A DNA stretch of 22,721 nucleotides from a virus, in IMG/VR virus record IMGVR_UViG_3300010885_044726, positions 1-22,721 of that record. The stretch is one strand, 5' to 3'. Below the pieces are notes generated by a model. That model saw only the letters and a program-made list of their open reading frames with translations. It had not been told where the DNA came from and made no database searches. The position numbers and the translations under genes are program-made. Within the stretch, counting starts at the first letter, position 1. The number at the start of each line of letters is the position of its first letter. Of the stretch, positions 5,211 through 22,718 are shown piece by piece.

Positions 5211-5239
5211 TTGAAATCCTTGAGTTATTTCAGTTAATA
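5211..5239 (+). promoter_or_regulatory. Sigma70-like promoter before the 5245 gene
   Basis: The -35 is TTGAAA (5211-5216), the spacer is 17 bases and the -10 is TTAATA (5234-5239). Only 5 bases lie between the -10 and the ATG at 5245, so a leaderless transcript is expected. Confidence 0.55.
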
Positions 5240-5947: not shown

Positions 5948-5976
5948 TTGAAAAAGGCATACAAGTATGGTATATT
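5948..5976 (+). promoter_or_regulatory. Sigma70-like promoter for uvsX
   Basis: The -35 is TTGAAA (5948-5953), the spacer is exactly 17 bases and the -10 is TATATT (5971-5976). The -10 ends 7 bases before the ATG at 5984, so the expected start site falls at or next to the start codon. Confidence 0.7.
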
Positions 5977-5983
5977 GTAATGT

Positions 5984-6991
5984 ATGTCAGACTTACTTAA
6001 AAAACTCAGAAAAAATACAATCCTAAAACCAGAAACATTAAAGAATAGCAGATATTTTACAGACGAAAAGTTTATCAGAACAAATGTTCCTCTTTTAAAT
6101 CTTGCATTATCAGGTAAATTAGATGGTGGATTACCTAAAGGTATTGTTCAAATTGCTGCACCACCAAAGCACTTTAAAACTAATTTCATGATTGAAATTA
6201 TGAAAGGCTTTCAAAAAGAAAATGAAGGACATGACTATATTATAGTTCTTTATGATAGTGAGCTTGGAAGTACACCAGCTTATTTTGAAAAGGCAGGGGT
6301 AGATACAGAACGTATTGATCATCGTCCAATTCGCTCTGTTGAAGATTTAAAAGCAGACGTTGCAAATCTTATGGAAGATATTTCCGAAGGTGATCGAGTA
6401 TTGATTTGTGTTGACTCTATTGGTATGCTTCGTTCTTTAAAAGAAACCGAAGATGCAAAAGACAACAAACAAGTTGCTGATATGACAAGAGCAAAACAGC
6501 TTAAATCATTTTTCCGTATTATTACAGGAGAAGCAGCAATTAAGCAGATTCCGATGATTATTGTAAATCACTCTTATCAAACACAAGAAATGTATTCGAA
6601 AGAAGTTGCAGCAGGTGGACGAGGCGCACAATATGCAGCACATACTCTTCTCTTTATTACAAAAGCACAAGAGAAAGAAAAGATAGAAGGTAAAGACTCT
6701 CTTGCAGGCTTTCAATTTACCCTTGTGGCTGGATTGTCGCGATACGTGCGTGAGAACGCTAAATTCCCTGTTTCTGTGCGATTTGGAGAGGGTGTAGATC
6801 GTTACTCTGGCATCTTTGATCTTGCAGTTGAACTAAACTTTATTGACAATCCTAAACAGGGTTGGTACACGATTAAAGGTGAAGAAAAACAACGTCGTCG
6901 TGCAGACATTGAAGAAGATGATGAACTTATGGAATCGTTTATAAGCAATAAAGATTTTTGCAGTGCAGTAGAAAAGAAATATACTCTCTAG
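5984..6991 (+). CDS. uvsX: RecA-like recombination protein UvsX
   Basis: A strand-exchange ATPase that forms filaments on single-stranded DNA and drives recombination-dependent replication together with gp32 and a mediator. It is 335 residues. The P-loop is APPKHFKT (59-66); the family already departs from the standard GxxxxGKT by having Phe-Lys near its end, and here the first Gly is also Ala. YDSELGS (catalytic Glu93) and the Walker B LICVDSIG (Asp144) follow. IVNHSYQTQEMYSKEVAAGG is the region of the DNA-binding L2 loop. The acidic run IEEDDELMES lies near the C-terminus. The start is the ATG directly after the promoter, and it is the first gene after a strong terminator. Confidence 0.93.
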   Translation: MSDLLKKLRKNTILKPETLKNSRYFTDEKFIRTNVPLLNLALSGKLDGGLPKGIVQIAAPPKHFKTNFMIEIMKGFQKENEGHDYIIVLYDSELGSTPAYFEKAGVDTERIDHRPIRSVEDLKADVANLMEDISEGDRVLICVDSIGMLRSLKETEDAKDNKQVADMTRAKQLKSFFRIITGEAAIKQIPMIIVNHSYQTQEMYSKEVAAGGRGAQYAAHTLLFITKAQEKEKIEGKDSLAGFQFTLVAGLSRYVRENAKFPVSVRFGEGVDRYSGIFDLAVELNFIDNPKQGWYTIKGEEKQRRRADIEEDDELMESFISNKDFCSAVEKKYTL

Positions 6992-6997
6992 TAAATA
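6969..6997 (+). promoter_or_regulatory. Weak promoter candidate before the 7003 gene
   Basis: TAGAAA (6969-6974) lies 17 bases before TAAATA (6992-6997), which ends 5 bases before the ATG at 7003. The -35 is poor. The octamer AGTAAATA (6990-6997) is identical to the late-type box before the gene at 16541-17584, so late control is an alternative. Confidence 0.4.
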
Positions 6998-7002
6998 GAG
7001 AC

Positions 7003-7290
7003 ATGATTGAAGCAGTTATTAAATCAAGCGGAACTATTATAGGTAAACCTGTAATTAACAGAGTTATCATCGAAAATGAAGGTGATGTAGCTGTTCGTCG
7101 TAAAGATGATGAAACAGGTAAGATTGAACAGTTTACTATTGGTGAACTGTTCAATTCTTATAATAAGAAATCATCATATCGTAAAAATGAACCAGATCCT
7201 TCTTTGTTTGAAGAATGGTTTAGCAACAAATTTTTAAAAGGAAGAAACTTGGAAAGTCGAGTTATAAGCATACAGTTTTATAAAACTTAA
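7003..7290 (+). CDS. Small hypothetical protein between uvsX and gene 41
   Basis: A 95-residue protein that I do not recognise from sequence. The ATG at 7003 is chosen over a TTG further upstream because it lies 5 bases after a TAAATA box, as in the neighbours, and does not overlap uvsX. The first half looks like beta strands (TIIGKPVINRVIIENEGDVAVRRKDD). The second half has helical parts (FTIGELFNSY, SLFEEWFSNKFL) and is basic. In T4 the gene between uvsX and 41 is gene 40, a head-vertex assembly factor of similar size. Shared position is the only link, and I see no clear sequence match. Confidence 0.6.
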   Translation: MIEAVIKSSGTIIGKPVINRVIIENEGDVAVRRKDDETGKIEQFTIGELFNSYNKKSSYRKNEPDPSLFEEWFSNKFLKGRNLESRVISIQFYKT

Positions 7291-7297
7291 CTATAAC

Positions 7298-7326
7298 TTG
7301 ACTTATCCTTTTAAATATAGGATAAT
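7298..7326 (+). promoter_or_regulatory. Sigma70-like promoter for the gp41 helicase
   Basis: The -35 is TTGACT (7298-7303), the spacer is 17 bases and the -10 is GATAAT (7321-7326), one of the best matches in the window. Only 5 bases follow before the ATG at 7332, so +1 should fall on the start codon. Confidence 0.72.
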
Positions 7327-7331
7327 CATAC

Positions 7332-8684
7332 ATGGCAAAAATAGACCTTGATTTTTTTGAGAAGATTATTATTCAACATTGTCTCAAAAAAGATTCCACA
7401 TACATCGCAAGTATCATAGATTATCTTGATAAAGATTTATTTAAAGATAGTAACATTGCAGAGATTATTAACATTATTAAAAGTTTTTATATTGAGCGAA
7501 ATTCTATTCCAACTTTAACTGAATTAAAATCAAGAGTAAATACTTTAACTTTAAAAGAATCACTTAAAAAAGTTGTTGGTTATATTCGTGAATTGGATTC
7601 TGAATACAATGAAAGTGAGTTGGTTAATAACACAGAATATTTTATTAAGCAAAGAAAATATTCTCTGCTTATGGAAAATGCTATTGATAACAAAGCATCT
7701 AATAAAGAGTTTAATCTTGAGGAGATTCAAAAAGAAAGCGAAAAGATTCACCAAATAACACTAATTGATAATTTCGGTTTAGACTATTTTGGAGAAAATG
7801 AAAGAGTTGTAAATTATCTACAACAAAAAGATAATTTTATATCCACAGGATACCGAACATTAGATGAAGCTTTTGGTGGAGGCTTTCAAAAAGAAGGCAA
7901 ATCAATTTATGATATTGGTGGTGAAACTAATGTTGGTAAAAGTATCTTTTTAGCAAACATTGCATTAAATGTAATTTTACAAAATAAGAACGTTGTTATC
8001 ATCTCGCCAGAAATGAGCGAAATGAGATATGCAAAACGTATATCTGGTATGTTAACTGGAATTGCAATTAGTTTGCTTGGAGATAATATAGAAAAATATA
8101 AAAAGGATATTGAGAATTTTAAAAACAAGTATTCTTCAAAATTTATTATTAAAGAGGTTCCTACAAAAGGTGTTTCTGCAAAAAATATTTATGCGTATCT
8201 TAAAAAACTAAGTGATAAAAAAGGCATTAAACCTGAGTTACTTTGTATTGATGGACATGCACTTCTTAAACCATCGGTAACACAAAATTCCAAACATGCA
8301 GAATTACAATTTATTGTTCAAGAATGTCGAGGTATTTCATATCAAATTGAAGCACCGATTTTAACTGTTGCACAACTTAATCGTAGTAGTCATAAAGCGA
8401 ATAATCCTGGCTTGGATAATATGGCAGGTTCTTGGGATCAACTAGCTGATTTTGATGCACATGTAAACATTTGGCAAACTGATGAAGATCGTGAGGCAAG
8501 CATTATCAGATTTGGCGGAAAGAAAGTTAGAGACGGTTCTAAAGGCGGAGAAGGATACCTTAGCATAGATTATGACACTTTACGACTTTTTGAAGAAGGA
8601 GAAATACCTGATTCAAAAGATTTATCTAATAAACTAGACCTTTCTAGTATTTTAGACTTTGATTCTTTAATGAATGCGCATTAA
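7332..8684 (+). CDS. 41: DnaB-like replicative helicase gp41
   Basis: Hexameric helicase that unwinds DNA at the fork and works with primase. It has 450 residues against 475 in T4. The N-terminal domain (about 1-140) is helical. The RecA-like domain has Walker A GETNVGKS (197-204), SPEMSE with the likely catalytic Glu227, Walker B LLCIDGH (Asp307), and VAQLNRSS with Gln348 as the sensor region. NMAGSWDQLADFDAHVNI and FGGKKVRDGSKGG, toward the C-terminus, are typical of this family. After the core comes an acidic tail (LDLSSILDFDSLMNAH). The gene begins right after a strong promoter. The next gene, in the position of T4 33, starts 8 bases after its stop. Confidence 0.93.
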   Translation: MAKIDLDFFEKIIIQHCLKKDSTYIASIIDYLDKDLFKDSNIAEIINIIKSFYIERNSIPTLTELKSRVNTLTLKESLKKVVGYIRELDSEYNESELVNNTEYFIKQRKYSLLMENAIDNKASNKEFNLEEIQKESEKIHQITLIDNFGLDYFGENERVVNYLQQKDNFISTGYRTLDEAFGGGFQKEGKSIYDIGGETNVGKSIFLANIALNVILQNKNVVIISPEMSEMRYAKRISGMLTGIAISLLGDNIEKYKKDIENFKNKYSSKFIIKEVPTKGVSAKNIYAYLKKLSDKKGIKPELLCIDGHALLKPSVTQNSKHAELQFIVQECRGISYQIEAPILTVAQLNRSSHKANNPGLDNMAGSWDQLADFDAHVNIWQTDEDREASIIRFGGKKVRDGSKGGEGYLSIDYDTLRLFEEGEIPDSKDLSNKLDLSSILDFDSLMNAH

Positions 8685-8687
8685 ATA
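8659..8687 (+). promoter_or_regulatory. Sigma70-like promoter before the 8693 gene
   Basis: The -35 is TTGATT (8659-8664), the spacer is 17 bases and the -10 is TAAATA (8682-8687), ending 5 bases before the ATG at 8693. It overlaps the end of gene 41. The octamer ATTAAATA also matches the late-type box before the 15080 start. Confidence 0.5.
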
Positions 8688-9639: not shown

Positions 9640-9695
9640 AACTGACAGCGATAGCATCAAATCAGTTGAATAAGAAAATTAAGAAAATTAAAATT
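9640..9695 (+). promoter_or_regulatory. Candidate autogenous translational operator in the gene 32 leader
   Basis: The predicted leader begins with a hairpin: AACTGA (9640-9645) pairs with TCAGTT (9662-9667) around a 16-base loop. It then runs into two perfect copies of AAGAAAATT (9672-9680, 9681-9689) and a partial copy AAAATT (9690-9695) touching the ATG. In T4, gp32 represses its own mRNA by nucleating on a leader pseudoknot and spreading along unstructured A/U-rich RNA over the start codon. The layout here matches that logic, although I see a hairpin and cannot show a pseudoknot. Confidence 0.55.
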
Positions 9696-10631
9696 ATGTC
9701 ATTAAACCTAGAAGATATTATTAACCAAGTTAAAGCAGTTGAAGAAACTAAGATTCAAAAAGAAAAGGGAGGCTATAAAGGCGACCCAAGACTCTTGAAG
9801 TTTAAGAAAAACAATACATACGTGATTCGTCTCCTTCCTTATATTAAGGATGTAAACAACACCTTTGTAAGTTATAAAGAAGTCGGCTTTAAAAGCAGAG
9901 TAGACGGTGCTTACATTTATGGCGGACGTTCTCCACAAGATGCAGGTATTAAAGAAGATCCGTTCAAAGCAACACAATGGGAACATTATTCAAAGGCTAA
10001 AGAAGCTGGCGATGAAGTTGAGCAAAAAGCATCATATAAGCTTCTTGCACAAAGAAAACAAATTGTTAATGCATACCTTGTTTCTGTAGAAGGCGACGAC
10101 GCAGATGCAAAAGAAAAGATTGGCGAAGTTATTGCAATACCTTATCCTGCACAAATGGATCGTGAAGGTAATCCAATCAGCGACATTTACAAAAAGATTC
10201 ACTCTGCAATCTTTGGTGATATGTCTAAAAAGATTGGTGCAAAAGCACTTGATCTTTCTGAAAAAGGTCGTTCCTTGATTATCAAAGTTACTGAAAAGGC
10301 TGGATACAACAACTATTCAGAAACTACATTTGATGATGCAGAAGACATCGGATTAAACGAAAGTCAGATTCGTGAAGTTCTTAATAAGGCTCATGACTTG
10401 ACAGAATTTATTCCAGAAGTTAAAAGTAAGGAAGATATTCTTGCTATCTTGGATAAGCATTGGCACGGAACATCATCAACACCAGATGATGAGATGGAAG
10501 AAGAACCAGAGATTGAAACTCCTAAAAAGAAAATCAATCTAACAACTACTGCGGCAGATGATGAAATTCCTATGGGAAATTCTAAATCTGCTGAAGAAGA
10601 TGACTTAGATTCACTTCTCGAAGACGTTTAA
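9696..10631 (+). CDS. 32: Single-stranded-DNA-binding protein gp32
   Basis: Coats single-stranded DNA at the fork and organises polymerase, helicase loader and recombinase. The ATG at 9696 gives 311 residues (T4: 301); an in-frame TTG at 9666 lies in the predicted operator hairpin and is less likely. The core strand YVIRLLPYIKD corresponds to the T4 IRFLPSKND region, and the basic N-terminus would mediate cooperativity. The Ser/Glu-rich linker ends in EEDDLDSLLEDV, very like the acidic T4 tail that contacts partner proteins. There is no cysteine anywhere in the protein, so the zinc site of T4 gp32 (one His, three Cys) is absent; the corresponding segment is GGRSPQDAGIKEDPFKATQW. The gene has its own promoter and structured leader. 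Confidence 0.88.
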   Translation: MSLNLEDIINQVKAVEETKIQKEKGGYKGDPRLLKFKKNNTYVIRLLPYIKDVNNTFVSYKEVGFKSRVDGAYIYGGRSPQDAGIKEDPFKATQWEHYSKAKEAGDEVEQKASYKLLAQRKQIVNAYLVSVEGDDADAKEKIGEVIAIPYPAQMDREGNPISDIYKKIHSAIFGDMSKKIGAKALDLSEKGRSLIIKVTEKAGYNNYSETTFDDAEDIGLNESQIREVLNKAHDLTEFIPEVKSKEDILAILDKHWHGTSSTPDDEMEEEPEIETPKKKINLTTTAADDEIPMGNSKSAEEDDLDSLLEDV

Positions 10632-10634
10632 TCT

Positions 10635-10663
10635 TTGATTATTTCAAAAGTGGCGGCTAAATA
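10635..10663 (+). promoter_or_regulatory. Sigma70-like promoter before the 10669 gene
   Basis: The -35 is TTGATT (10635-10640), the spacer is 17 bases and the -10 is TAAATA (10658-10663), ending 5 bases before the ATG at 10669. Spacing and -10 are the same as at the 8693 gene. Confidence 0.5.
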
Positions 10664-10668
10664 ATGTT

Positions 10669-11277
10669 ATGGAAGATAATAGAGACATAGCATTTTTAGC
10701 CGCTTCTTGCGATAGAGAAATGAGACAAACACTTGCAGGTAGTGGACTGCGATATAATAGAACTGATTTTCGTAAATTTTTACAAAACGAAGGTAATAGT
10801 GGTTACGTACAACAACCTGATTTTAATCAGCAACAAGCATATCATCAGCCGCAATATCAGCCGCAATATCAACAACAAGCTCCTGCACAGATGCAGTATA
10901 ACAATGTTCCAGTAGAACCGAACATTCCTGCTGGTGTATTACCACCACCAAATGCGACATTTATTCCAATGCCAAATGGTTATAATACACAAACGCCACG
11001 GCAACAACCTTTAACAACAAATCTCGAATCTACAGGAGGATTTGAAATTCCAGATTACAATCGTGCTTCTAAAACATATTTGGAAGACGAAAAACAATTT
11101 CGTGATGCACTTATCACAGAAATTAAAGTTTTGAAAAATAATATCAAAGCTCAAAAAACTCAACTAAACAAGTTGACAAAAGCAGTAGAAACGCTTACTT
11201 TACTACTGTCAAAAGACACAACATTAGAACCCTCAACCGAAGAAGAAATTATAAATGATAATTCAGATCAATCCTAA
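10669..11277 (+). CDS. Q/P-rich protein with C-terminal coiled coil, unknown function
   Basis: A 202-residue protein that I do not recognise. The first 45 residues look folded and basic (REMRQTLAGSGLRYNRTDFRKFL). A low-complexity stretch rich in Gln, Tyr and Pro follows (about 48-77, including QPQYQPQY encoded by two copies of a 12-base repeat), then a Pro/Asn-rich linker to about 130. Residues 138-181 form a Lys/Leu/Thr heptad-like coil (ITEIKVLKNNIKAQKTQLNK), and the end is acidic. The layout suggests a tethering or oligomerising protein. It lies between SSB and the probable clamp and overlaps the clamp gene by 23 bases, so a replication or late-transcription role is possible but unproven. 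Confidence 0.65.
   Translation: MEDNRDIAFLAASCDREMRQTLAGSGLRYNRTDFRKFLQNEGNSGYVQQPDFNQQQAYHQPQYQPQYQQQAPAQMQYNNVPVEPNIPAGVLPPPNATFIPMPNGYNTQTPRQQPLTTNLESTGGFEIPDYNRASKTYLEDEKQFRDALITEIKVLKNNIKAQKTQLNKLTKAVETLTLLLSKDTTLEPSTEEEIINDNSDQS
10844..10867 (+). repeat. Two tandem copies of a 12-base repeat in the Q/P-rich gene
   Basis: The unit atcagccgcaat occurs at 10844-10855 and again at 10856-10867, encoding the repeated QPQY segment. It is a perfect duplication in the low-complexity region and could vary in copy number between relatives. Confidence 0.8.
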
Positions 11278-11995
11278 AGAGTTTTTAAACGACTTTATTA
11301 ATCCGATCAATGATTTGAATAGAGAAGGTAAGATTGCCTTATTTTGTGATGGCACAGAACTCTATTCAATATCAACAACAAAATCAAAAACTATTAATCT
11401 ATATAATACATATAGCCCATTGAATGTAGAAGACTCTATTCAACGATGTAGTTTAAATATTCAAAAACTTACTAAAGGTTTAAGTTGTATAATGAAAGAT
11501 GAAATGTTTGTATCATTAGATATTTCATTAGAAACGAATACATTAAATTTTTCTACAAAAGAAATTCGTTTCAATATTCGTCTTTTAGAAGACGCTCTAG
11601 TAGAAGTTCCTAAATTCAACATTGAAGTATTCAAACAATTTGCTATTCACCATGAAGTGAATATTAATTCAGACAAAGTTAATAATATTAAAAAAGCTTT
11701 GGAATTTTCAACAGAAACATCTAAGTTCTACATTGAACAAGAAGACGGAGACGTTTACTTTTACTTTGGTGAAAAGAACTCAACATCAAATCATACAGAT
11801 GATATTAAAATTCATGTTGCAGAAGGTGTTTCAACAAAAGTTCCTAATAAGATTTATGATATTGATATTCTAAAACTTGTTTTGAAATTTAAAAACGATT
11901 TTTCGATTAAATTAAATGATAATGGTGTCATGTACATTGAAGTCGAAAACCCAAACAGTAACCTAAAATATATAACCGCTCCACTAATTAAATAA
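11255..11995 (+). CDS. 45: Probable sliding clamp gp45
   Basis: Would form the ring that tethers gp43 to DNA and, in T4, activates late transcription with gp33 and gp55. The 246-residue protein (T4: 228) reads as two similar halves of beta strands with few helices, the pattern of a two-domain clamp. The N-half includes EFLNDFINPINDL, then GKIALFCDGTELYSIST. The C-half includes SDKVNNIKKALEFST, then SKFYIEQEDGDVYFYFGE, like the helix plus 'I.V.DG.I...' strands of gp45. Overall identity to T4 looks low, so the call rests on fold pattern, size and replication context. The start lies 23 bases inside the previous gene with no promoter, so it is probably translationally coupled. Confidence 0.55.
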   Translation: MIIQINPKEFLNDFINPINDLNREGKIALFCDGTELYSISTTKSKTINLYNTYSPLNVEDSIQRCSLNIQKLTKGLSCIMKDEMFVSLDISLETNTLNFSTKEIRFNIRLLEDALVEVPKFNIEVFKQFAIHHEVNINSDKVNNIKKALEFSTETSKFYIEQEDGDVYFYFGEKNSTSNHTDDIKIHVAEGVSTKVPNKIYDIDILKLVLKFKNDFSIKLNDNGVMYIEVENPNSNLKYITAPLIK

Positions 11996-12681: not shown

Positions 12682-12687
12682 TAAATA
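12680..12687 (+). promoter_or_regulatory. T4-late-type promoter octamer before the 12693 gene
   Basis: TGTAAATA ends 5 bases before the ATG at 12693, with no recognisable -35 17 bases upstream (CCCTAA lies there). It therefore resembles the minus-strand late boxes more than the plus-strand sigma70-like promoters. Confidence 0.45.
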
Positions 12688-12692
12688 CATAT

Positions 12693-13049
12693 ATGGACAA
12701 TAACACCGATAATCCTTCAGAGTCCGATCTTAAAAAAATTGAAAAAGTTTTACAAGATATAAACAATAAAAAAACCCCAAAGGTTAGAAAAAAACCAAAG
12801 AAATTAACTGCTAAGGATAAAGAAAGACTAGGTGTTGCTATTGCAAACAGATTATCAGAACTTGTAGATAGTTATATTTTATTAGGTTATGATGTAAACG
12901 GCAACTCTTTAGTTCTTATAAATTCTCAAAGTGATTTAGAAAGTAGAGGAATATCTGATCTTTTAGAAGATTTTATGACATCAGGCGGTAGTGCTATGAA
13001 TGTCTCTCTTGATGAAGATGAAGATGACGGTTCAGACGAAGATTTTTAA
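12693..13049 (+). CDS. Small hypothetical protein with basic N-terminal and acidic C-terminal parts
   Basis: A 118-residue protein that I do not recognise. A Lys/Pro-rich basic stretch (about 27-45, KKTPKVRKKPKKLTAKDKER) precedes a compact core (VAIANRLSELVDSYILLGYD, then SLVLINSQSDLE, then ISDLLEDF). The end is strongly acidic (DEDEDDGSDEDF). The split charge suggests a nucleic-acid or protein-binding adaptor, but no function can be assigned. It stands alone after a terminator with a late-type box, and its stop codon touches the stop codon of the convergent baseplate gene. Confidence 0.7.
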   Translation: MDNNTDNPSESDLKKIEKVLQDINNKKTPKVRKKPKKLTAKDKERLGVAIANRLSELVDSYILLGYDVNGNSLVLINSQSDLESRGISDLLEDFMTSGGSAMNVSLDEDEDDGSDEDF

Positions 13050-15080
13050 TTAACAATTAGATTTAGCTAATTCATTTAGAGCCGATTTTATTTCAGCATA
13101 TTTGCTTTCTAATTCGGCTTCTAATCTTTTTACCTGTTGCTGAATATATACATCAGTATATTTTTGGGTTCTAACACCTTCACCACTTGGTAAAGAATCA
13201 CTTACAGATGATGTTTTATCCCAATCGGTTTTATCTATCTGTAAAGTTCCACAACCATTTCCGCCAAATTTATCGGTAACAGTGTATTGTGTTTTAGAGT
13301 TTTGAACAGGTTGTGAAAGAACAGGAGTTGGCCAATTATTTCTTGCACCAACCGCACGAACAGCATTATGCGGACTTGCACTACCTGAACCACCTGCTGA
13401 ACCCACATTAGCTTGAACACTACTACTTTTTTCAAAGAGTTTCATTGGTGCATTTTTAAAATAATGATAATGTTTATCAACAACAGCAAAGTTTGGACTG
13501 TTTAAAGAATAAACACTTAAGCAGTGGTCATTACCATTAGTATCTTTACCAACAGCAAGACCGATAAGAGCACCTGGTAAAAGAGTTGCATATGTTGGAC
13601 TCTTTGGTGCATCAGTTGTGCAATTCTGAGCATCCATTTCAATTTTAAATCCATTTGCACCAAAGCTACAAATACCAGGAGGCGGTGGTAAAACTATTGG
13701 TTCAAAGTTTTGATCGTATGTAAAGTCACTTTCAGTGATATGATACTCACAAGGAGCAGTAATATGTTGAAGTGATAATTCACCTTCAATGTGTGCGCCT
13801 CCACGAATAACCGCATTAAGACCAACATTTAAATTACCATCAATTAAAACTTGTTGTTCTTGTTCTGTAGTTCCACCAGTTTCTAATGTTCTTGAAAGTT
13901 TTTTTGGTCTTAAAGAAATTACACTACCAGTAATATCAACACGCTCACCATCAAATGCTAGTTCGCCTCTGCTACCAATCGAAACTTCTTCACCAACAAT
14001 ATTAACAACAGAACCGAATAAATTAAGAGGTCCACTAGTTTTAAAATCTATTCCATTTGAACCTACAGTTACAGTCCAACCGTCACAAACATTTAATTCA
14101 TAAGAACCACCAGGAAACTTATCAACATCCACATTTTCAATAAGAGAAGTGTCGCGATATTGTGTATAAATTGTTGTTCCAAGCGGATCAATTTTTACAC
14201 CGCAAGGCACAAGTTTACCGTGTGGATCTTTTCGGAAAGATTCAAAATCATTAAATACAAGACCAATATTTTGAATAAAATGTTTTGCAATTGTTTGAAT
14301 AGAAGAACCACCATTAGGACATTTATTTTGTCCTAATTGTTTTTCGTATTCATATACTCTTTTTTGAATTTCTTCGCGTTTTGCAGCAATAGTTTTCTTT
14401 TGAGTTTCTGTGGTCCAAGAACCGTCTTGAGATGATGGTGACAGCATCTTGCCCCAACAGGTTAAACAAAGTCCTCCACCGCTTCCTGAGACGTTATTAT
14501 AGCCTTCTTTACCATCTGTTACACTAATCACATCTCTACTATTCACTTTTCTTTTTGAAACTTTTGTAGTAGAAGAACTAACAAGCATTTTTGAAACATT
14601 GCTGTGGGATGTACACTTTGCAGGAATACCAGCTTTACTCTGAGAAGGTGCTTGATCTATTGAATTTTCTTTTTTTGTTCTTTTAACTTCAAAAAGTCTT
14701 TTAATATTATGAACTTCGCGATATGCATCTTTAATATTTTGCATTGGTTCTTGCCAACGTGCTACATCACCAACAGTATCAATAACATCTCCAAGAACAA
14801 CACGTTGAGAATTTTCGTCAACAAGCTCTGTTTTTGAACCGTTTATTGTTAGTAGAGAATCTCCTAAAATATGTTCTCTACTATCGCGTGTAATAGATTC
14901 ATCTTTACCAAATTTATCAAATTTTAAATGAGAACCACTTTTATGAGTAACTGTTACACTCTCTTCATCTTTTGTGTTTAAAAATTCAAGGTTTCCTGCG
15001 GGTTGGTTTAAAACAACTTTATCTTTACAAATCTCATCAGCTTGGTTTGGATCGTTACTGTATTTACCTGGGTAATGCAT
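13050..15080 (-). CDS. Baseplate spike/hub-like protein with beta-helical repeats (gp5 C-terminal-like)
   Basis: Probable central spike component at the tip of the tail. It has 676 residues. Near the N-terminus, VTVTHKSGSHLKF and DSLLTINGSKTELV have the short 'T-H-x-SGS-x-l-x-f' beta repeats seen in gp5 and VgrG C-terminal prisms. A second beta-rich region (about 330-440) includes VTVGSNGIDFKTSGPLNLFG, VNIVGEEVSIGSR and DGNLNVGLNAVIRGGAHIEG. The final 34 residues form a coiled coil (IQQQVKRLEAELESKYAEIK) ending in Cys. It contains no lysozyme signature and no OB fold, which sits in the upstream gene instead. It is the last gene of the late block, and I see no terminator after it. Confidence 0.65.
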   Translation of the reverse strand: MHYPGKYSNDPNQADEICKDKVVLNQPAGNLEFLNTKDEESVTVTHKSGSHLKFDKFGKDESITRDSREHILGDSLLTINGSKTELVDENSQRVVLGDVIDTVGDVARWQEPMQNIKDAYREVHNIKRLFEVKRTKKENSIDQAPSQSKAGIPAKCTSHSNVSKMLVSSSTTKVSKRKVNSRDVISVTDGKEGYNNVSGSGGGLCLTCWGKMLSPSSQDGSWTTETQKKTIAAKREEIQKRVYEYEKQLGQNKCPNGGSSIQTIAKHFIQNIGLVFNDFESFRKDPHGKLVPCGVKIDPLGTTIYTQYRDTSLIENVDVDKFPGGSYELNVCDGWTVTVGSNGIDFKTSGPLNLFGSVVNIVGEEVSIGSRGELAFDGERVDITGSVISLRPKKLSRTLETGGTTEQEQQVLIDGNLNVGLNAVIRGGAHIEGELSLQHITAPCEYHITESDFTYDQNFEPIVLPPPPGICSFGANGFKIEMDAQNCTTDAPKSPTYATLLPGALIGLAVGKDTNGNDHCLSVYSLNSPNFAVVDKHYHYFKNAPMKLFEKSSSVQANVGSAGGSGSASPHNAVRAVGARNNWPTPVLSQPVQNSKTQYTVTDKFGGNGCGTLQIDKTDWDKTSSVSDSLPSGEGVRTQKYTDVYIQQQVKRLEAELESKYAEIKSALNELAKSNC

Positions 15081-15086
15081 ATAGAT

Positions 15087-15094
15087 TATTTAAT
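15087..15094 (-). promoter_or_regulatory. T4-late-type promoter octamer before the spike-like gene
   Basis: On the minus strand the octamer reads ATTAAATA and ends 6 bases before the ATG at 15080. No -35 lies 17 bases further up (AGGAAT is there). It overlaps the stop codon of the upstream gene. Confidence 0.5.
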
Positions 15095-16539
15095 TATGCA
15101 GACTCGAAAATTCCTCTATAATCTGCTTTTGCAGCAAAAGAACCAAGAATAATAGGATAATTCAAATCTCCATTTTCAAAATAAATCCATACATGAGCAC
15201 CAACACCGGGTATAGAAACCATTCCTTTAAAGTCGTTATTATAATCTGGAGAACGCATTGGTCCACGATGCATTTGAGAAACATCACCAATTACGTTTGC
15301 ACCTTTTGTTTTATTAGGATCATTTGACGGTATACGACAACGATTAACCGTTGCTCTTGATTCGTTATTTGCGCCACCAAGATGCATATCTTTTCTTTGA
15401 TTTGTTGGTAATAATTTCGAGGAAACATTGTTAAATATTTCGCCTCCCCCGCCCCCGCGAGAAATCATTGTTTGACCATTTGTAACAGGACTGCGAGGCA
15501 TAATAGGTGCGCCTGAATTAGCTGTAAATGCCTTTTTTAACAGTGCTAACAGTGCAGTTATTTTATTCAAATCAAAAGGTTTTTTATTATGTTTAACATT
15601 TATCGAATTAATATTTTTTCGATTTGTTTTTACTTTAATAGAACCATCTTGAAAAATTATCTCATTATCATTAAATGAAGAAACTCTAAAATTACTAGGT
15701 AAACTTTTTTGTTCATTAATAATTAATCCAACAGGCAAATCAGTATAAGAAGATGTTGGTTCTTCGTCAGAGTCTTCAAACAATATAGGAGGTGAAAAGG
15801 TTAACATTCCAGTAGTGTCTATAGGAGTAAAACATTCTCTGTTATAAAGAGGATTATCTTCTGAAATAGGCTGATCATTTACTAGTATTATTGGATTTGT
15901 TATAGAAATATCAATTCCAATAATAGATCGGTTTTCGTTTGGTAAAGGAGGATCTAAATCTATAGTCTGCTCTATAAATTCTCTTGGAATCTCATTAATT
16001 ACTTCATCAAGGTCTGTGTTTGTTGGTCTAAGATTACTTTTAATCTTTTTATCTTTATCACATTTATCTGGAAGACAAAATGGTAAACCATTAATAGGAA
16101 AATTTAAATCTAAGGTTGTTCTTGGTTCTTGACCATAATTTGGAAGAGGTGACTTTTCTGGTCTATTTTTACTCTGCTGTTTATCTTGATCAAATGCAGC
16201 AGTTGTTTTATTACTCTCTTGTGATAGATAGTCTGAATCATTTCCAATATAAAAAGAATCTGATGGTGCATTATAAAACCCAGGACTACTCATTCCTATA
16301 ACAGGAAGCATAACTTCGGCCCATAAAAGTCTTTCTTTTTGACTATTTAAAACTTCAGGTTTTAGTGAAGAACCTGTATTTCCTCCCATAACCTTAAAGA
16401 ATTTATCTTCTTCTTTGGATTGATTCCAATTTTTAGATTGATTTAAGTTAATGCCGGGAATATAAACTTTTACACGACCACTTTGTTGCGGGTCATTATT
16501 TTGCACTACTATTCCTCTATATAATCCTTGTTGATTCAT
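15094..16539 (-). CDS. 5: gp5-like baseplate hub protein with OB fold and large insertion
   Basis: Likely the OB-fold hub protein that links the gp27 ring to the spike. Residues 1-32 (YRGIVVQNNDPQQSGRVKVY) and 440-470 (MVSIPGVGAHVWIYFENGD, then YPIILGS) are the first and last strands of the gp5/VgrG OB domain. They are separated by about 400 residues, much of it polar and Pro/Asn-rich, including five consecutive Gly encoded by an unusual GC-rich patch. No lysozyme domain like that of T4 gp5 is visible. The ATG at 16539 is chosen rather than the TTG at 16548, because it places the start one base after the upstream stop (TAA-T-ATG). Total length is 481 residues. Confidence 0.72.
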   Translation of the reverse strand: MNQQGLYRGIVVQNNDPQQSGRVKVYIPGINLNQSKNWNQSKEEDKFFKVMGGNTGSSLKPEVLNSQKERLLWAEVMLPVIGMSSPGFYNAPSDSFYIGNDSDYLSQESNKTTAAFDQDKQQSKNRPEKSPLPNYGQEPRTTLDLNFPINGLPFCLPDKCDKDKKIKSNLRPTNTDLDEVINEIPREFIEQTIDLDPPLPNENRSIIGIDISITNPIILVNDQPISEDNPLYNRECFTPIDTTGMLTFSPPILFEDSDEEPTSSYTDLPVGLIINEQKSLPSNFRVSSFNDNEIIFQDGSIKVKTNRKNINSINVKHNKKPFDLNKITALLALLKKAFTANSGAPIMPRSPVTNGQTMISRGGGGGEIFNNVSSKLLPTNQRKDMHLGGANNESRATVNRCRIPSNDPNKTKGANVIGDVSQMHRGPMRSPDYNNDFKGMVSIPGVGAHVWIYFENGDLNYPIILGSFAAKADYRGIFESA

Positions 16540-16540
16540 A

Positions 16541-17584
16541 TTAGTCAAATTCGTTTTTACATTCAGGCTTTGTGCCTACTACTTTATCGTTTGTTGGGTC
16601 TGTATTTTCAGTTGGTTCGCTAGTATCACTCATTGGTCGTCCTGTCATATCAACTATATATGTTACAGGTTCGCCGTTTGGTCCTTCGTTCATTGTTATT
16701 TCAAAGCCTTCAACTTCGTATTTTGCAAGCTCTTGAATACAGAAAAATTTATTTATAAGACGAAGCGTGTCGCCTGCAAGAGATAAGGTTGCTGCCATTG
16801 CACCTTCTAGTGCATCAACGTTTCTTTGGCCGTTAAAAACGTCCATTGTATAATTATGACCATGTGATATAGGAGCTTCATTAGAGTAACCAGTATGCAT
16901 AAAAGACATGTTATTTCCTTTTGGCATTGCTCTTAAAAATAAAGTATTTAATAGATTACTAGAAGTGTCCATTAAATTAAAAATAGAATTTGCTATTTTT
17001 AATTGTGTGTTTTTATTCATTCTTGAATTTGTATCTAAACAGTTTACACCATTTTGGTCTGGCCATTTCATAGGATCAACAGACGTTTTATTTTGTGCTA
17101 TGCTTGCAAAAGAACCAACATCTTCACTTGTTTGTTGAAAGTAAGGATATGTATCAATGTTATTTTGTATATAAGCATTAATCGCAGGATGCATCTTTTG
17201 TGATTGATTTAAAAACTCACGTAATAATGGCGTTGGCATAATTGCACAAGTTTGTGGATTAGATTTACCAACTGCTGATTTTGGCATTTGTCGAACAGCA
17301 CTGTTTACAGCTTTTGCACTATACAAGTTTTCCGATGTTTGATTTTTTGATTTTCCCCCATTACCAAGTTTTCCGCCAACAAAAGAAGAGAACTTAGTTA
17401 ATTCTGTTGAACTACCTGTCCACGGACCATGATATTCTGCAATCATTTGAACTGCACGATCAAGAGGTTTTTCTGATGTTTCTAAAGAATTTCTTAAATC
17501 ATCAAATATTGTTCCGTTTTTTCTTTTTCCTGTGGGAGAAGAATAAAGAGATTTACGAAAATTTTCGGTTACAACTTGAGACAT
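16541..17584 (-). CDS. Unknown protein of the baseplate hub block
   Basis: A 347-residue protein that I do not recognise. It lies between the gp27-like and gp5-like genes and shares the late block, so a hub or tail-tip role is likely from position alone. The sequence is rich in Asn, Ser and Met. It has a segment with several aromatic and His residues (SFMHTGYSNEAPISHGHNY), then an Ala/Leu-rich helix (ALEGAMAATLSLAGDTLRLI), a short beta hairpin with Gly-Pro-Asn-Gly, and an acidic, Thr/Pro-rich end (DTSEPTENTDPTNDK). No signal peptide or membrane segment is seen. A late-type box lies just before the start, and the next gene follows by a TAATATG junction. Confidence 0.7.
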   Translation of the reverse strand: MSQVVTENFRKSLYSSPTGKRKNGTIFDDLRNSLETSEKPLDRAVQMIAEYHGPWTGSSTELTKFSSFVGGKLGNGGKSKNQTSENLYSAKAVNSAVRQMPKSAVGKSNPQTCAIMPTPLLREFLNQSQKMHPAINAYIQNNIDTYPYFQQTSEDVGSFASIAQNKTSVDPMKWPDQNGVNCLDTNSRMNKNTQLKIANSIFNLMDTSSNLLNTLFLRAMPKGNNMSFMHTGYSNEAPISHGHNYTMDVFNGQRNVDALEGAMAATLSLAGDTLRLINKFFCIQELAKYEVEGFEITMNEGPNGEPVTYIVDMTGRPMSDTSEPTENTDPTNDKVVGTKPECKNEFD

Positions 17585-17590
17585 ATGTAG

Positions 17591-17598
17591 TATTTACT
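17591..17598 (-). promoter_or_regulatory. T4-late-type promoter octamer before the 17584 start
   Basis: On the minus strand the octamer reads AGTAAATA and ends 6 bases before the ATG at 17584. The position of a -35 holds AAAATA, so no sigma70 -35 is present. It lies in the 28-base gap after the gp27-like gene. Confidence 0.5.
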
Positions 17599-17612
17599 AA
17601 TAGGAATCCTTC

Positions 17613-19178
17613 TTATTTTATAATAAGAACATCATCAGATTCAAATTTTGTAATTTCTTGATATGTATGTGCCTTAACACCAATAATTTCTGTTGAATAA
17701 TTACGTGTTTTATTATTGAATACATGAATAACATTTGTTACAAAATACTGACCTTCTAATTTATGGTCATATTCTTTATCATTTAAATTTTGTTTAGATA
17801 ATCCGAAAAATCTTCCTGTTTGACGAAGAGTTAACCCTCTAGTGCTAAAAGTTATTGCTAAATTTGAAAATAAATAATAATTTAATAATTTATTACGACC
17901 TTCTGATAAACGAGTAACTTCATCTTTTGCAACAGTAACAATAGTGCGTGTATTAAGTGTGTCTTTTATAAAAGGTGTAAACACCAGACGATCCTCATTT
18001 TCTTTTGTAAGCACATTATTTCTAATAGATTTTTTAAAATAATCTTTATATTGTTCAGCAGAGTGTTTTTTATTCTCTTCACAAAATTGACCGCATGAAG
18101 AATTATAAGATACTACACGATAATTTGTTAGATTTTTAGAATAATCCTTTCCACTTAAATCAACAAGACGATAGTTATAAATAATATTATACTCGTCTGC
18201 TTTGATTTCATCTTTAGATTCTGCGCTTCCGAGTGGTGATTTTAAAAGAGGAGGAGTTTTTTCTTTATCAGAGTTTTCTTTTAAGAAAAAGTGTTCAATT
18301 TGATATTCCTTTGGAGTGTTTTGCTCTTTACCAGCTTTTTCAAAATATTTTGAAATTGGTTTTAAAGAAAACTGTTTTGGAGTCATGGTTTTTTCTGCAC
18401 GCTCAAATTTAAAAATACAAGGTTCATTATTATATACATCAGATGCTGTTGTATATCGTAACATATAATCCAAGTTATCTATAAATTTCGCATTTACAGG
18501 AGAAGAATAATTCATTGTATTAAGCTCACTTCCAGAGTCCCACTCTTCTTTATCATTTGTAAATTTAGAGTATTTTTGAAAATCAGGATCTTTTCTTAAT
18601 AATTCTGCAATTGCTTCTGAGCAAATTAAAGAACGTTCAGTATTATCAATTTGTGATATATTAGTTTTGTTTGAATTTTTACCAACAGTTGATGTAGAGA
18701 AATCAGAATCTTTTTCAGTCATCATTTGATAAACTTTTTCCCAAAAAAAGAGTTTTTTCTTTTTGTCTGTTATGTTATCACTAGATAAATCCTCTACATC
18801 AAACACAACTGCTTCGATTTCTAATAACCATTTTTTATCATCAAAAGTATATTCTGGTAAACCTTTTTTGTTAACAGATTTTGGTTTTATAGAAATAAAC
18901 AAAGTGTCTCTGCCATCATTTCGAAATTTATATATTAAATTTTCTTTTTTAGCTTTTACAGATTTAATAGTTTCTTCACTTTCTTTTTCAAGAGATTCGT
19001 ATGGACTGTTTATAACTATGCTACCTTTTATTTTCCAATCAAAAATATCTTCTTCTAGAATTAAAGAATCCCATGCGACATTGTTTAAATAAACGTCGTT
19101 AACTCCATTATAGAGTCTAACTACACAATCATAATCTTGTCCATTAAAAGAAAAATTACTATTATCTGATGTATTCAT
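17613..19178 (-). CDS. 27: gp27-like baseplate hub protein
   Basis: Probable ring-forming hub protein that connects tail tube and spike. It has 521 residues against 391 in T4. The best evidence is the C-terminal segment from residue 474, LEGQYFVTNVIHVF, then YSTEIIGVKAHTY. This matches the 'G-x-Y-x-V-T-x-V-x-H-x-F ... Y-x-x-x-I' pattern that ends gp27/VgrG-type hub proteins. The N-terminus includes WDSLILEEDIFDWKIKGSIV, a beta-rich opening typical of such proteins. The extra length lies in Lys/Glu/Asn-rich central stretches. It stands directly upstream of the unknown and gp5-like genes, as expected for a hub. Its start overlaps the previous stop by one base (TAATG). Confidence 0.65.
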   Translation of the reverse strand: MNTSDNSNFSFNGQDYDCVVRLYNGVNDVYLNNVAWDSLILEEDIFDWKIKGSIVINSPYESLEKESEETIKSVKAKKENLIYKFRNDGRDTLFISIKPKSVNKKGLPEYTFDDKKWLLEIEAVVFDVEDLSSDNITDKKKKLFFWEKVYQMMTEKDSDFSTSTVGKNSNKTNISQIDNTERSLICSEAIAELLRKDPDFQKYSKFTNDKEEWDSGSELNTMNYSSPVNAKFIDNLDYMLRYTTASDVYNNEPCIFKFERAEKTMTPKQFSLKPISKYFEKAGKEQNTPKEYQIEHFFLKENSDKEKTPPLLKSPLGSAESKDEIKADEYNIIYNYRLVDLSGKDYSKNLTNYRVVSYNSSCGQFCEENKKHSAEQYKDYFKKSIRNNVLTKENEDRLVFTPFIKDTLNTRTIVTVAKDEVTRLSEGRNKLLNYYLFSNLAITFSTRGLTLRQTGRFFGLSKQNLNDKEYDHKLEGQYFVTNVIHVFNNKTRNYSTEIIGVKAHTYQEITKFESDDVLIIK

Positions 19179-19501
19179 TAAGAATTATTTATCTGAGATA
19201 CTATCTGTGTGACAACTGATGTGTTTAATATTTTAACTCTTGTGCCTTCTTTTAAGTCAAAAGGATTTTTAATATTATTACCAATTAATATAATCCACCA
19301 AAGTCGAGGAGTGCCATAGTGTTTTCTAGAAAGTTCATAAACAGAACGAAAATCATAAGCAACGTCATATGAATATAACGAAGGATCTATCTCACCATCA
19401 ATGTTTATTGCATTTAACAAATTAAAAAATTCGTAACCTTCTTCAGTTGTATAAACAGAAAAGATGTTTGAGTAGTCGTATGTATTTAAATCTATAGCCA
19501 T
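19178..19501 (-). CDS. 53: gp53-like baseplate wedge protein with LysM-like domain
   Basis: Probable small baseplate component that joins wedge and hub. It has 107 residues, shorter than T4 gp53 (196). Residues 55-91 read YELSRKHYGTPRLWWIILIG, then NNIKNPFDLKEGTRVKIL. This is a LysM-type fold with the paired Trp and the Asn-x-Ile-x-Asn-Pro-Phe-Asp-Leu signature common in gp53-like and other contractile-tail baseplate proteins. It lies between the tube-cap gene and the hub gene. The start follows the upstream stop by one base (TAATATG), and no late-type box is seen at the usual distance, so translation is probably coupled. Confidence 0.75.
   Translation of the reverse strand: MAIDLNTYDYSNIFSVYTTEEGYEFFNLLNAINIDGEIDPSLYSYDVAYDFRSVYELSRKHYGTPRLWWIILIGNNIKNPFDLKEGTRVKILNTSVVTQIVSQINNS
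19186..19193 (-). promoter_or_regulatory. T4-late-type promoter octamer before the gp27-like gene
   Basis: On the minus strand the octamer reads GATAAATA and ends 7 bases before the ATG at 19178. It lies inside the end of the gp53-like gene. There is no -35 at 17 bases (GTCACA). Confidence 0.55.
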
Positions 19502-19502
19502 A

Positions 19503-20588
19503 TTAAGAGTTATTAAAAACTGGAATGTTTGAAACTGGATTATTTAGATTGTTTCGTAAATCTGAAATTGTTCTATCATTAAATGCTTTTGCGGCTTTTG
19601 GATTAGATATATCTTCGTTCGCAATAGTATCGGACGCTCTATTTAGTGATTCTTTAAAGGATGTTAAATCACTAATAGCTTCTACCTTTCTTCCCTTTTC
19701 TAATGCACGCATAATATTACGTGTAGGCATTAATAGTGATGTAAAAGTTATTTCTATTCTATATGCTTCTGGAATTGTTCTAGCAGATCCTCCTAAATCC
19801 ATTATTCTTGTATTTCCAAGATTTGTAATGGTTAATGCTGATATATAACATGCAGGAAATTGAACAACATCAGGAATAAATAGATTGTATATTACTGGTG
19901 GATCAACAATTGCAAAATTTCTTCTTGAAGGAGTATTTTGATAAGATAATAAATGACAGAAGCGACGATTACGATATACATCTTCTACAGAATCTGTATT
20001 AAAAAGATCAAATGTCACTTCAATTGTTTCTAATGAAGTACCTGTCCAAGACTGCGGACTTTCAAAATTTATTGCTCCTGGTAAAGAAGTATTTATTAAT
20101 CCTACACCTGCTCCAGCAACTTCTGCGGATTTTCCAAGTAGTGATAAAATACCTTTACCTCCAAACCCTGCGGCTTGGCTTCCAAATTTTAATAGACTTG
20201 CAAAAGGACTCTCTTCTGAACCAAAAGTATTTCCTCTTACCATTTTTTTAGGATTAAAATATGGTAAACGATAACGAAAACCTGTAGGTTCTGCAAAATA
20301 TTTATAGCGATAAACTTCTTCTGGATCATCAGGTTCAATAACTGTTTTTAAATTTGTAGAATTGACTTTATCAAAAACTCTAGCATAGTAAATAAGAGAT
20401 GCTATTAATTGACCAGTAGTTTGTTGATATTCAATCAATTCTATATAAGGAACATCTTTACGAGATGATTTAGGAGAAAGTGTCCATGGCATATCAGTAA
20501 CAACATCTATTAAACCATCGCCACCATCCATTGGTATGTAGAATTTACTATCTGCGTCTGATTTTGTATATTTAACTGTTGATGCCAT
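19503..20588 (-). CDS. gp48/gp54-like tail tube cap or initiator protein
   Basis: Probable baseplate protein on which the tail tube starts to grow. It has 361 residues (T4 gp48 364, gp54 320). The recognisable part is residues 259-292, NTRIMDLGGSARTIPEAYRI, then ITFTSLLMPTRNI, a 'IPEAY ... I-x-x-T-F-x-S-L' strand pair typical of this family. The middle holds a Gly/Ala-rich hydrophobic stretch (GSQAAGFGGKGILSLLGKSA). The gene directly follows the tape measure, as gp48 and gp54 follow gp29 in T4. I cannot tell gp48 from gp54, and only one such gene is present here. A late-type box abuts its start. Confidence 0.68.
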   Translation of the reverse strand: MASTVKYTKSDADSKFYIPMDGGDGLIDVVTDMPWTLSPKSSRKDVPYIELIEYQQTTGQLIASLIYYARVFDKVNSTNLKTVIEPDDPEEVYRYKYFAEPTGFRYRLPYFNPKKMVRGNTFGSEESPFASLLKFGSQAAGFGGKGILSLLGKSAEVAGAGVGLINTSLPGAINFESPQSWTGTSLETIEVTFDLFNTDSVEDVYRNRRFCHLLSYQNTPSRRNFAIVDPPVIYNLFIPDVVQFPACYISALTITNLGNTRIMDLGGSARTIPEAYRIEITFTSLLMPTRNIMRALEKGRKVEAISDLTSFKESLNRASDTIANEDISNPKAAKAFNDRTISDLRNNLNNPVSNIPVFNNS

Positions 20589-20593
20589 AAAAG

Positions 20594-20601
20594 TATTTAT
20601 C
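20594..20601 (-). promoter_or_regulatory. T4-late-type promoter octamer before the tube-cap gene
   Basis: On the minus strand the octamer reads GATAAATA and ends 5 bases before the ATG at 20588. It overlaps the stop codon of the tape measure gene. No -35 is present (AAAGAG). Confidence 0.6.
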
Positions 20602-22702
20602 CAACATATTTAGTAGCTCTTTCACGGAAATCTGCAATAGGATCACTACCTCCAATCATTACAGGAGTTTGTTTACCTCCTGTTGAAACAACAGCCTGTA
20701 CTACACTAGAACTACCTTGAATTGTAGAGTTAGCAATAATTTGTACGCCTTGTGCAAATACAACTGAAAGTTGTTCAAGTTTCTGATTCATTTCTCTAAA
20801 TGCCAGATCAAAAGGTCCACCATTTTTCGCCATAACAACGTCATCAGATGAAGATGGAACAATTCCTTTATTTTTATTTATTATACCGTCTTCATTTTTT
20901 TGCGGGTTATACCGATTTGTAGTACTTTTTTGTTCTGCTAGGGCTGGATTTGGTTGTGTTGGTTGGGGTTCTGGTTTTTTAGTATCTTTATCTAATTCTT
21001 TAGATAAGTCTTCTTTTTCTCCAGTCGCCCAATCCCAAATCTTTTTACCCCAACTTAAAGGATTTAACATATCAAGAACATCTTTAAAGAAACTGAATAT
21101 CGAAGTAACAGTATCCGCCATTTTAGAAGGTATATCTTTTATGAAATTTTTTATTTTAGAAACAGCAGAATTAGGATCTGCTGCTTTTCTATCTAAAAAC
21201 ATATTTAATACATCAAGACCGATAGATATTGCAGTTCCGATACCAGGGAAAAACGAAGCAATACCAGAACCTATACTAACAAGTCCTCCTATTAAGTCAC
21301 CGCCTTTTATACGATCATATGCATCTTTAAAAGAAATAAGCCCTCCAATAAAAGGAATTTTTTTTGCGATATTTTTAAACATTGTACCAAGAAGTTTAAA
21401 AATAGATCCTCCACTTAATTTTGCAATAGAACCTATTACTTTACCTATTCCTCCCCCTGCACCAAACCCCATATTAGAGAAGAATTTCATTATAGCTTTT
21501 GGAATTATACTCAATGATGAAAAAACATTTCCTATTTTTGATAATATACCTGTTCCCATAGAAGATGCTCTTGATATAAATTTAGTAGCAAGTTTTAAAG
21601 GTGCTACTATCTTAGACATTAGTTTATCACCTATTTCAGAAAATAGTTTTCCTAATGTAGTTGGTATAAAATCTATTACAGGTTTAATAAATTTCAGTAA
21701 TTTACTAAATCCACCAAAAGAAAATTTATTTAATACACCGACAAATACATTTTTAACACCATAGTATATTCCTTTTGTTAAAAGAACCGCAATTCCTTCA
21801 TTCTCTTTTCCTAGAATTTCTTTTAAACCAAAAAAGTTAAATGTCTGTTTTAAGAAATATTTAGGAAGTTCAAAAAATAAAACTTTTAATCCTTCGATAC
21901 TATAATCTATAATCTTTTTTAAGAAAGGTTTTAACATTTCTACAAACCTATCCGTTAAATCTCCCATAATGGCTTTTATATTTTTTCCTATGGGAGTATC
22001 TAAGAAACTTGAAAGCATTCCAATTCCTGCAACAAGTGCAATTGTTCCAAGAATACCTTTTAATATCTTTCCTATAAATGAACCTTCCTCTTTATCTTTG
22101 GGCTGTGGTCGGTTTATTGTAGTATTTTTGACATTTAATTTACTGAAAATTCTAGACAAAATATCTTCTGCATTTTTACTTATATCAACAAGTCTTACAT
22201 CAACTATTGTAGGAGTTCCAACAGCAGCTTCAGTTCCTAAAGATCCTATACCACCACTTAAAGATTTATTAATATTTTTCAGACTATCTCTAAAAGTTCT
22301 GACTTCTCGTAATGCACCTTTCATTGCAACATCAAAAGCATAAAAACCAGTAATGTTTAGATTATCTCGAAAATTTCTTACGTTTTTCAATGCACCTTCC
22401 ATTGCGATTTTAAAAGCAGAAAAACCAGTAATATCTAAATTATCTCGAAAATTTCTTACGTTTTTCAATGCACCTTCCATTGCACGATTAAATGCATAAA
22501 AATTTGGTAATTTGAAACTTTTAAATTTTTTACCAACATCATTAATATTATCTTTTAATTTTTCGACTAATTTACCATCAATATTAAATGGCGAATTTTT
22601 ATCATCGAATAGCTTGAAAATCTTATCAGCGATATAGTTTTTACCTGCACCGCTTTTTTTTAAGTATTCGTCAAAAACTGCTATTAAATCTGATGGATTC
22701 AT
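20597..22702 (-). CDS. 29: Tail tape measure protein (gp29-like)
   Basis: Likely sets tail length and sits inside the tail tube. It has 701 residues (T4 gp29 590). After a helical N-terminus come three tandem 26-residue repeats (68-145), the first reading AFNRAMEGALKNVRNFRDNL after its two leading residues. A hydrophobic segment (about 214-235, GILGTIALVAGIGMLSSF) and a long Gly/Ile/Phe-rich region (about 450-525) follow, typical of tape measures that can later contact the host membrane. A Pro/Gln-rich linker precedes a polar C-terminus. Its place just before the tube-cap gene supports the call. A perfect late octamer precedes the ATG. At about 1.5 angstroms per residue the helical length would be near 100 nm, similar to T4. 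Confidence 0.75.
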   Translation of the reverse strand: MNPSDLIAVFDEYLKKSGAGKNYIADKIFKLFDDKNSPFNIDGKLVEKLKDNINDVGKKFKSFKLPNFYAFNRAMEGALKNVRNFRDNLDITGFSAFKIAMEGALKNVRNFRDNLNITGFYAFDVAMKGALREVRTFRDSLKNINKSLSGGIGSLGTEAAVGTPTIVDVRLVDISKNAEDILSRIFSKLNVKNTTINRPQPKDKEEGSFIGKILKGILGTIALVAGIGMLSSFLDTPIGKNIKAIMGDLTDRFVEMLKPFLKKIIDYSIEGLKVLFFELPKYFLKQTFNFFGLKEILGKENEGIAVLLTKGIYYGVKNVFVGVLNKFSFGGFSKLLKFIKPVIDFIPTTLGKLFSEIGDKLMSKIVAPLKLATKFISRASSMGTGILSKIGNVFSSLSIIPKAIMKFFSNMGFGAGGGIGKVIGSIAKLSGGSIFKLLGTMFKNIAKKIPFIGGLISFKDAYDRIKGGDLIGGLVSIGSGIASFFPGIGTAISIGLDVLNMFLDRKAADPNSAVSKIKNFIKDIPSKMADTVTSIFSFFKDVLDMLNPLSWGKKIWDWATGEKEDLSKELDKDTKKPEPQPTQPNPALAEQKSTTNRYNPQKNEDGIINKNKGIVPSSSDDVVMAKNGGPFDLAFREMNQKLEQLSVVFAQGVQIIANSTIQGSSSVVQAVVSTGGKQTPVMIGGSDPIADFRERATKYVG
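22268..22501 (-). repeat. Three tandem 78-base repeats in the tape measure gene
   Basis: Copies lie at 22424-22501, 22346-22423 and 22268-22345. The first two are nearly identical over most of their length; the third is more diverged (AMKGALREVRTFRDS against AMEGALKNVRNFRDN). All stay in frame, each encoding 26 residues. Confidence 0.88.
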
Positions 22703-22710
22703 CTTACTTC

Positions 22711-22718
22711 TATTTATA
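22711..22718 (-). promoter_or_regulatory. Perfect T4-late promoter octamer TATAAATA before the tape measure gene
   Basis: On the minus strand the octamer reads TATAAATA, the consensus T4 late box read by the gp55 sigma factor with clamp and gp33. It ends 8 bases before the ATG at 22702. The position of a -35 lies outside the window. Confidence 0.75.

Follow-up and report, generated by a model that had tools for sequence, protein, structure and literature searches.

The question raised by this locus is whether octamers of the phage T4 late-promoter type, lying almost against the start codons that they precede, are promoters and, if so, where their transcripts would begin. The window analysed is the whole 22,721-base stretch (G000), an uncultured phage contig of the IMG/VR type with a GC content of 31%, which carries gp46, a glycosyltransferase, gp43, UvsX, gp41 and gp32 among its plus-strand genes and baseplate families among those of its minus strand. 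Five minus-strand starts are preceded by such an octamer: TATAAATA at 22711–22718, 8 nt before the ATG of the 701-aa gene at 22702; GATAAATA at 20594–20601, 5 nt before the ATG at 20588, and again at 19186–19193, 7 nt before that at 19178; AGTAAATA at 17591–17598, 6 nt before that at 17584; and ATTAAATA at 15087–15094, 6 nt before that at 15080. The octamers and their spacings are exactly as claimed in the first-pass annotation. In the order listed, they are kept in 8/9, 9/9, 8/9, 9/9 and 10/10 orthologues, with conservation extending down to about 52% UvsX identity. We note that the box at 20594–20601 takes the first half of its TAAATA from the stop codon TAA of the upstream gene. Five further boxes, not listed by that annotation, precede the plus-strand starts at 950 (d = 6, where d is the number of bases separating box from ATG) and at 7003, 8693, 10669 and 12693 (d = 5). 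TAAATA at d = 5–8 accompanies ten of the 21 starts in the window; given 48 copies of TAAATA in the window on both strands, a simple binomial puts the chance of at least ten such starts at about 6e-19 and that of five among the seven minus-strand starts at about 3e-11.

Relatives of the window were fetched at UvsX identities of 52–97%, with longer contigs also read, and the clade-wide set consists of nine non-redundant contigs with 663 starts. One mechanical gene caller, which takes ATG-first open reading frames (ORFs) of at least 60 aa, was used throughout. The clade is made up of uncultured, T4-like relatives of phage T4; its matches to cultured phages are all below 60% identity (44% for UvsX and 32% for gp43), so that none of the cultured phages in the collection searched is a close member of it. 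TAA(A/G)TA, written TAARTA below, ends 5–8 bases before the ATG at 186 of the 663 starts (28%) versus 70 of 21,139 other ATGs (0.33%); it occurs at the same distance from nine of 2,546 in-frame internal ATGs. By distance, the counts of TAAATA are 2 at d = 3, 0 at d = 4 and 61, 61, 27, 17 and 12 at d = 5–9, beyond which they are near background. The spacing is stable across the divergent clade, and the flanking sequence varies.

The late promoters of T4 belong to the gp55/gp33/gp45 system (PMC2988020, PMC1524935, PMC7892883). Among the clade genes that homology allowed us to identify, 20 of 29 virion genes, including terminase, sheath, capsid and protease, have a box in front of them, versus none of the 61 genes for replication or regulation (Fisher 2e-13). 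A gp55 homologue of 243–254 aa is present in six clade contigs (PHROG 234, E 6e-17 and 3e-16; L020:4504–5232, L026:8161–8892 and four more); it sits near gp47, a neighbourhood shared by S-PM2 and HTVC008M, and is not encoded in the 22.7-kb window itself. PHROG 98 was rejected as the wrong family for gp55, PHROG 234 being the correct one. The window encodes a gp45-type sliding clamp of 246 aa (11255–11995, plus strand), the AlphaFold2 model of which (pLDDT 88.6) matches PCNA and beta clamps in Foldseek (E about 1e-12, TM at most 0.77). In T4 the gp45 clamp activates late transcription. With a gp55 homologue in the clade, a clamp in the window and boxes at virion genes but at no replication genes, the gp55-type assignment made in the first-pass annotation is supported.

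That annotation had also seen no -35 element in the four cases in which one could be read. This holds at 20588, 17584 and 15080, where at most three of the six TTGACA positions match at spacers of 15–19, and fails at 19178, which has TTGTCA at a spacer of 18. Because the latter hexamer falls inside the coding sequence of the gene upstream and orthologues do not retain it, it is probably a chance match. For the box at 22702 the contig end is too close for the -35 region to be read. Clade-wide, 53 of 59 virion boxes have no TTG at spacers of 16–18. The suggestion that almost all late genes carry promoters of their own holds in part, for five of the seven late genes in the window and for 20 of the 29 recognised virion genes of the clade; most of the others adjoin the gene before them or overlap with it. 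Such genes in the window are one of a baseplate wedge family (19178–19501) and one of a baseplate hub/lysozyme family (15094–16539), both on the minus strand and both starting 1 nt past the upstream stop; their orthologues are boxless in 9/9 and 7/9 contigs, respectively.

Replication genes have TTGAnn-N16/17-TATAnT instead, with the -10 element at d = 5–8 like the late boxes. On the plus strand of the window, these sigma70-like promoters are TTGCAA-N16-TATAGT at 2336–2363, 8 nt before the ATG of the gp43 DNA polymerase at 2372 (PHROG 262, E 6e-194), TTGAAA-N17-TATATT at 5948–5976, 7 nt before that of UvsX at 5984 (PHROG 97, E 1e-71), and TTGACT-N17-GATAAT at 7298–7326, 5 nt before that of the gp41 helicase at 7332 (PHROG 19, E 1e-54). 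TTGAAA-N17-TTAATA at 5211–5239 stands 5 nt before the ATG at 5245, and its orthologues are alike. Among clade genes without a late box, TTGA peaks with its end 29–33 nt before the ATG (26, 44, 21, 20 and 14 occurrences versus about 5), and shifting the sigma70 pattern 5–20 nt upstream lowers the number of matches from 69 to 11–23. Two promoter classes do therefore share one start-codon distance, as had been proposed, with the TTGA peak at 29–33 nt and TATAnT at 5–8 nt. An apparent rule that late and sigma70 elements never occur at the same gene was discarded as evidence, since both occupy the same bases and the rule is true by construction.

About a quarter of the TAARTA boxes have TTG at a spacer of 16 (24 cases) or 17 (28 cases), against a background of about 3, giving the hybrid TTGAnn-N16/17-TAAATA. 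A TTG -35 is commoner at non-virion boxes (52 of 140) than at virion boxes (6 of 59; p = 7.5e-5). The window has three hybrids, all on the plus strand: TTGAAT-N17-TAAATA at 915–943, 6 nt before the ATG of the glycosyltransferase at 950 and with the same layout in G001, G005, G006, G007, G010 and G013, and TTGATT-N17-TAAATA at 8659–8687 and at 10635–10663, each 5 nt before the ATG (8693 and 10669, respectively). The other plus-strand boxes are TAAATA at 12682–12687, with no -35, 5 nt before the ATG of a 118-aa gene at 12693, and TAAATA at 6992–6997, 5 nt before that of a 95-aa gene at 7003, where TAARTA at d = 5 is kept in five contigs. The hybrids are probably dual early/late promoters, used first by sigma70 and later in infection by gp55, and with such a class in existence the box alone is not diagnostic of late-only expression. 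Divergent gene pairs about 50 bp apart were also observed in G005 (69835-/69890+) and G007 (27111-/27164+), in which the late box overlaps a sigma70 promoter on the opposite strand.

The T4 late octamer spans -13 to -6 (PMC1524935, PMC2988020). If the same holds here, a box ending 5–8 nt before the ATG predicts a transcription start 0–3 nt before the A of the AUG. The -10 hexamer of sigma70 promoters covers -12 to -7, which gives the same predicted start for that class. There is no Shine–Dalgarno signal at any distance in the clade, the profile of AGGA, GGAG and GAGG being flat from 0 to 59 nt before the starts; the same caller detects Shine–Dalgarno peaks in T4, KVP40, NCTC12673, phiM12, HTVC008M and G009, and the peak is clear in the 43–46% outgroup. 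For promoterless same-strand genes (n = 338) the median distance from the gene before is 1 nt (-4 in 53, -1 in 24 and +1 in 31), a pattern that would suit coupled translation. Eighteen late genes have an 8-nt gap between the upstream stop and their own start, and at this spacing the TAA of the stop forms the first half of TAAATA.

We consider it highly probable that the octamers are gp55-type late promoters, that both promoter systems have moved up against the ORFs and that the resulting mRNAs are leaderless or nearly so. Under this interpretation replication genes would depend on host sigma70-type promoters and virion genes on gp55-type boxes (NNTAARTA, no -35), with transcripts beginning at the A of the AUG or 1–3 nt ahead of it. 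These leaderless mRNAs would be translated from a 5'-terminal AUG without a Shine–Dalgarno site, and promoterless genes that overlap or adjoin the preceding stop would probably be translated by coupling or re-initiation. From the conserved spacing, the absence of Shine–Dalgarno sites and the position of T4 and cyanophage boxes, mostly 9–40 nt upstream, we infer with good support that selection acts on the 5' end of the transcript itself, as the first-pass annotation had argued.

Since an AT-rich clade without Shine–Dalgarno sites needs some start context, TAAATA might instead be a translation-initiation signal, or an A/T-rich unstructured context, with transcripts starting further upstream. 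This is unlikely: most genes that closely follow another lack the box, as does every recognised replication gene, the box matches the core of the known gp55 element letter for letter, and in the hybrids it keeps a fixed distance of 16–17 bp from a TTG -35 upstream of it, the geometry of a promoter. The hexamer itself also lies far above its permutations, with 166 occurrences at d = 5–8 of clade starts compared with at most 76 for any other; the next commonest, ATAAAT, overlaps TAAATA at a one-base shift. Marginally less probable again is that the boxes are ordinary sigma70 -10 elements, with TAAATA as a weak TATAAT and no separate late class. The TTG -35 found at spacers of 16–17 before a quarter of the boxes would fit this proposal, but virion boxes mostly lack it, the pure sigma70 promoters of the same genomes use TATAnT rather than TAAATA, and a gp55 homologue is present.

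A product of chance or of start annotation in an AT-rich genome, or of TAA stops beside starts creating the box, is the least credible of these alternatives, with hardly any probability left to it. The 18 genes in which the upstream stop can supply the TAA of the box speak for it, and placing starts at the first ATG could bias the spacings towards short ones. It is refuted by the low background at other ATGs, by the AT-rich T4-like phage NCTC12673 (GC 26%), in which the same caller gives no peak, by boxes in divergent intergenic regions (52 genes) and by the conservation of the boxes in orthologues.

Several observations weigh against the leaderless gp55-type interpretation. The start-site geometry of -13 to -6 is borrowed from T4, and start codons were assigned as the first ATG. 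The clade does not conserve the TA that the T4 octamer has at -13/-12, so that recognition of the box would differ in detail from that in T4; weak conservation at -13 has been reported for several T4-like phages. PHROG 234 matches the clade gp55 in two stretches, and the intervening residues (about 128–177) form beta strands in the model, suggesting an insertion; comparison of the model with solved structures gave no sigma match. The first-pass annotation had proposed a search for gp55 and gp33, and only the former was found; a scan for the C-terminal clamp motif, made on incomplete contigs, gave mainly the tails of gp43 and gp32 and no gp33. Lastly, gp32 and a gene of about 668 aa retain A-rich leaders, and not every gene of the clade is therefore leaderless. 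The gp32 leader (window 9640–9695, gene at 9696) reads TTGAATAAGAAAATTAAGAAAATTAAAATT-ATG, is alike in several contigs, has no Shine–Dalgarno site or near promoter and is possibly a site of gp32 autoregulation. A similar A-rich motif precedes the gene of about 668 aa in G005 and G007.

Comparison with T4 indicates a common TAAATA core, virion targets without a -35, a gp55 homologue and a sliding clamp. The T4 box, however, lies 9–40 nt before the ATG, with a Shine–Dalgarno peak at 5–8 nt, whereas in the clade it is the box itself that ends at 5–8 nt; the clade also differs in its unconstrained -13/-12 positions, its hybrid promoters and the lack of a detected gp33 in its contigs. Most of the T4-like phages compared, T4 included, retain leaders with Shine–Dalgarno sites. 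The cultured Pelagibacter phage HTVC008M resembles the clade in having nine late-type boxes, mostly ATAAATAG, exactly 5 nt before the ATG, head and tail genes included. Unlike the clade, it places Shine–Dalgarno sites ahead of many of its other genes and has hardly any TTGA peak, if one at all, at the -35 distance expected of leaderless promoters, so that leaderless transcripts would be confined to a part of its late class. The authors of a published search in pelagimyophages reported that they had found no satisfactory promoters of the middle or late class (PMC7029224). The cyanophages S-PM2, P-SSM2 and S-MbCM100 share T4-type replication genes and TAAATA-type boxes with the clade (gp55 and gp45 were seen in S-PM2 and S-MbCM100), but their boxes are mostly 12–40 nt upstream and form no leaderless peak. 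Outside phages, the ORF-adjacent -10 genes of Deinococcus-Thermus (PMC12340547) and the leaderless transcripts of mycobacteria (PMC4633059) likewise place a -10 element within a few bp of the ORF, on its upstream side, and lack a ribosome-binding site. These are cellular sigma promoters that exist beside Shine–Dalgarno genes, in contrast to a phage late sigma class in a clade from which Shine–Dalgarno sites are absent.

In a UvsX tree, the root and intermediate lineages of which are thinly sampled, the putatively leaderless clade forms one side of a branch (support 93/98), and the architecture therefore fits a single origin. With UvsX and gp43 as queries, a scan of GTDB species genomes for a host gave no matches, and a tRNA scan found none. 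The Bacteroidota-type -7 element TAnnTTTG showed no promoter-compatible positional peak, and no phage S21 ribosomal protein, a possible modifier of Shine–Dalgarno use, was found in 11 clade records. An imperfect direct repeat of about 70 bp (AATGGAAGGTGCATTGAAAAACGTAAGAAATTTTCGAGATAA...) was spotted by eye at about 22300–22481 on the minus strand of the window, in the N-terminal part of the 701-aa gene.

The arrangement described here is a real, conserved and well-defined feature, in which T4-type late promoters share a predicted leaderless layout with sigma70 promoters in a clade without a Shine–Dalgarno signal. We found no description of leaderless gp55 promoters in the open-access literature. 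The arrangement offers a rule by which gene starts and late promoters of uncultured phages can be called from sequence, as well as a hint to the type of host, and the exact 5-nt spacing in the cultured HTVC008M makes the leaderless idea testable now. T4 is the standard textbook example of late promoters whose mRNAs have leaders and Shine–Dalgarno sites; with ORF-adjacent promoters and the loss of Shine–Dalgarno sites, the clade would translate its genes quite differently and would show that leaderless and coupled translation can sustain the entire programme of a complex phage. More tentatively, and with somewhat less than an even chance in our estimation, the whole lineage may be nearly without 5' untranslated regions, almost all units, early and late, starting at the first AUG, most other genes being stop–start coupled and the gp55/clamp machinery directly setting the start of translation. 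If this is true, Shine–Dalgarno-dependent initiation would be bypassed, and the phage's own messages would possibly be favoured after takeover of the ribosomes.

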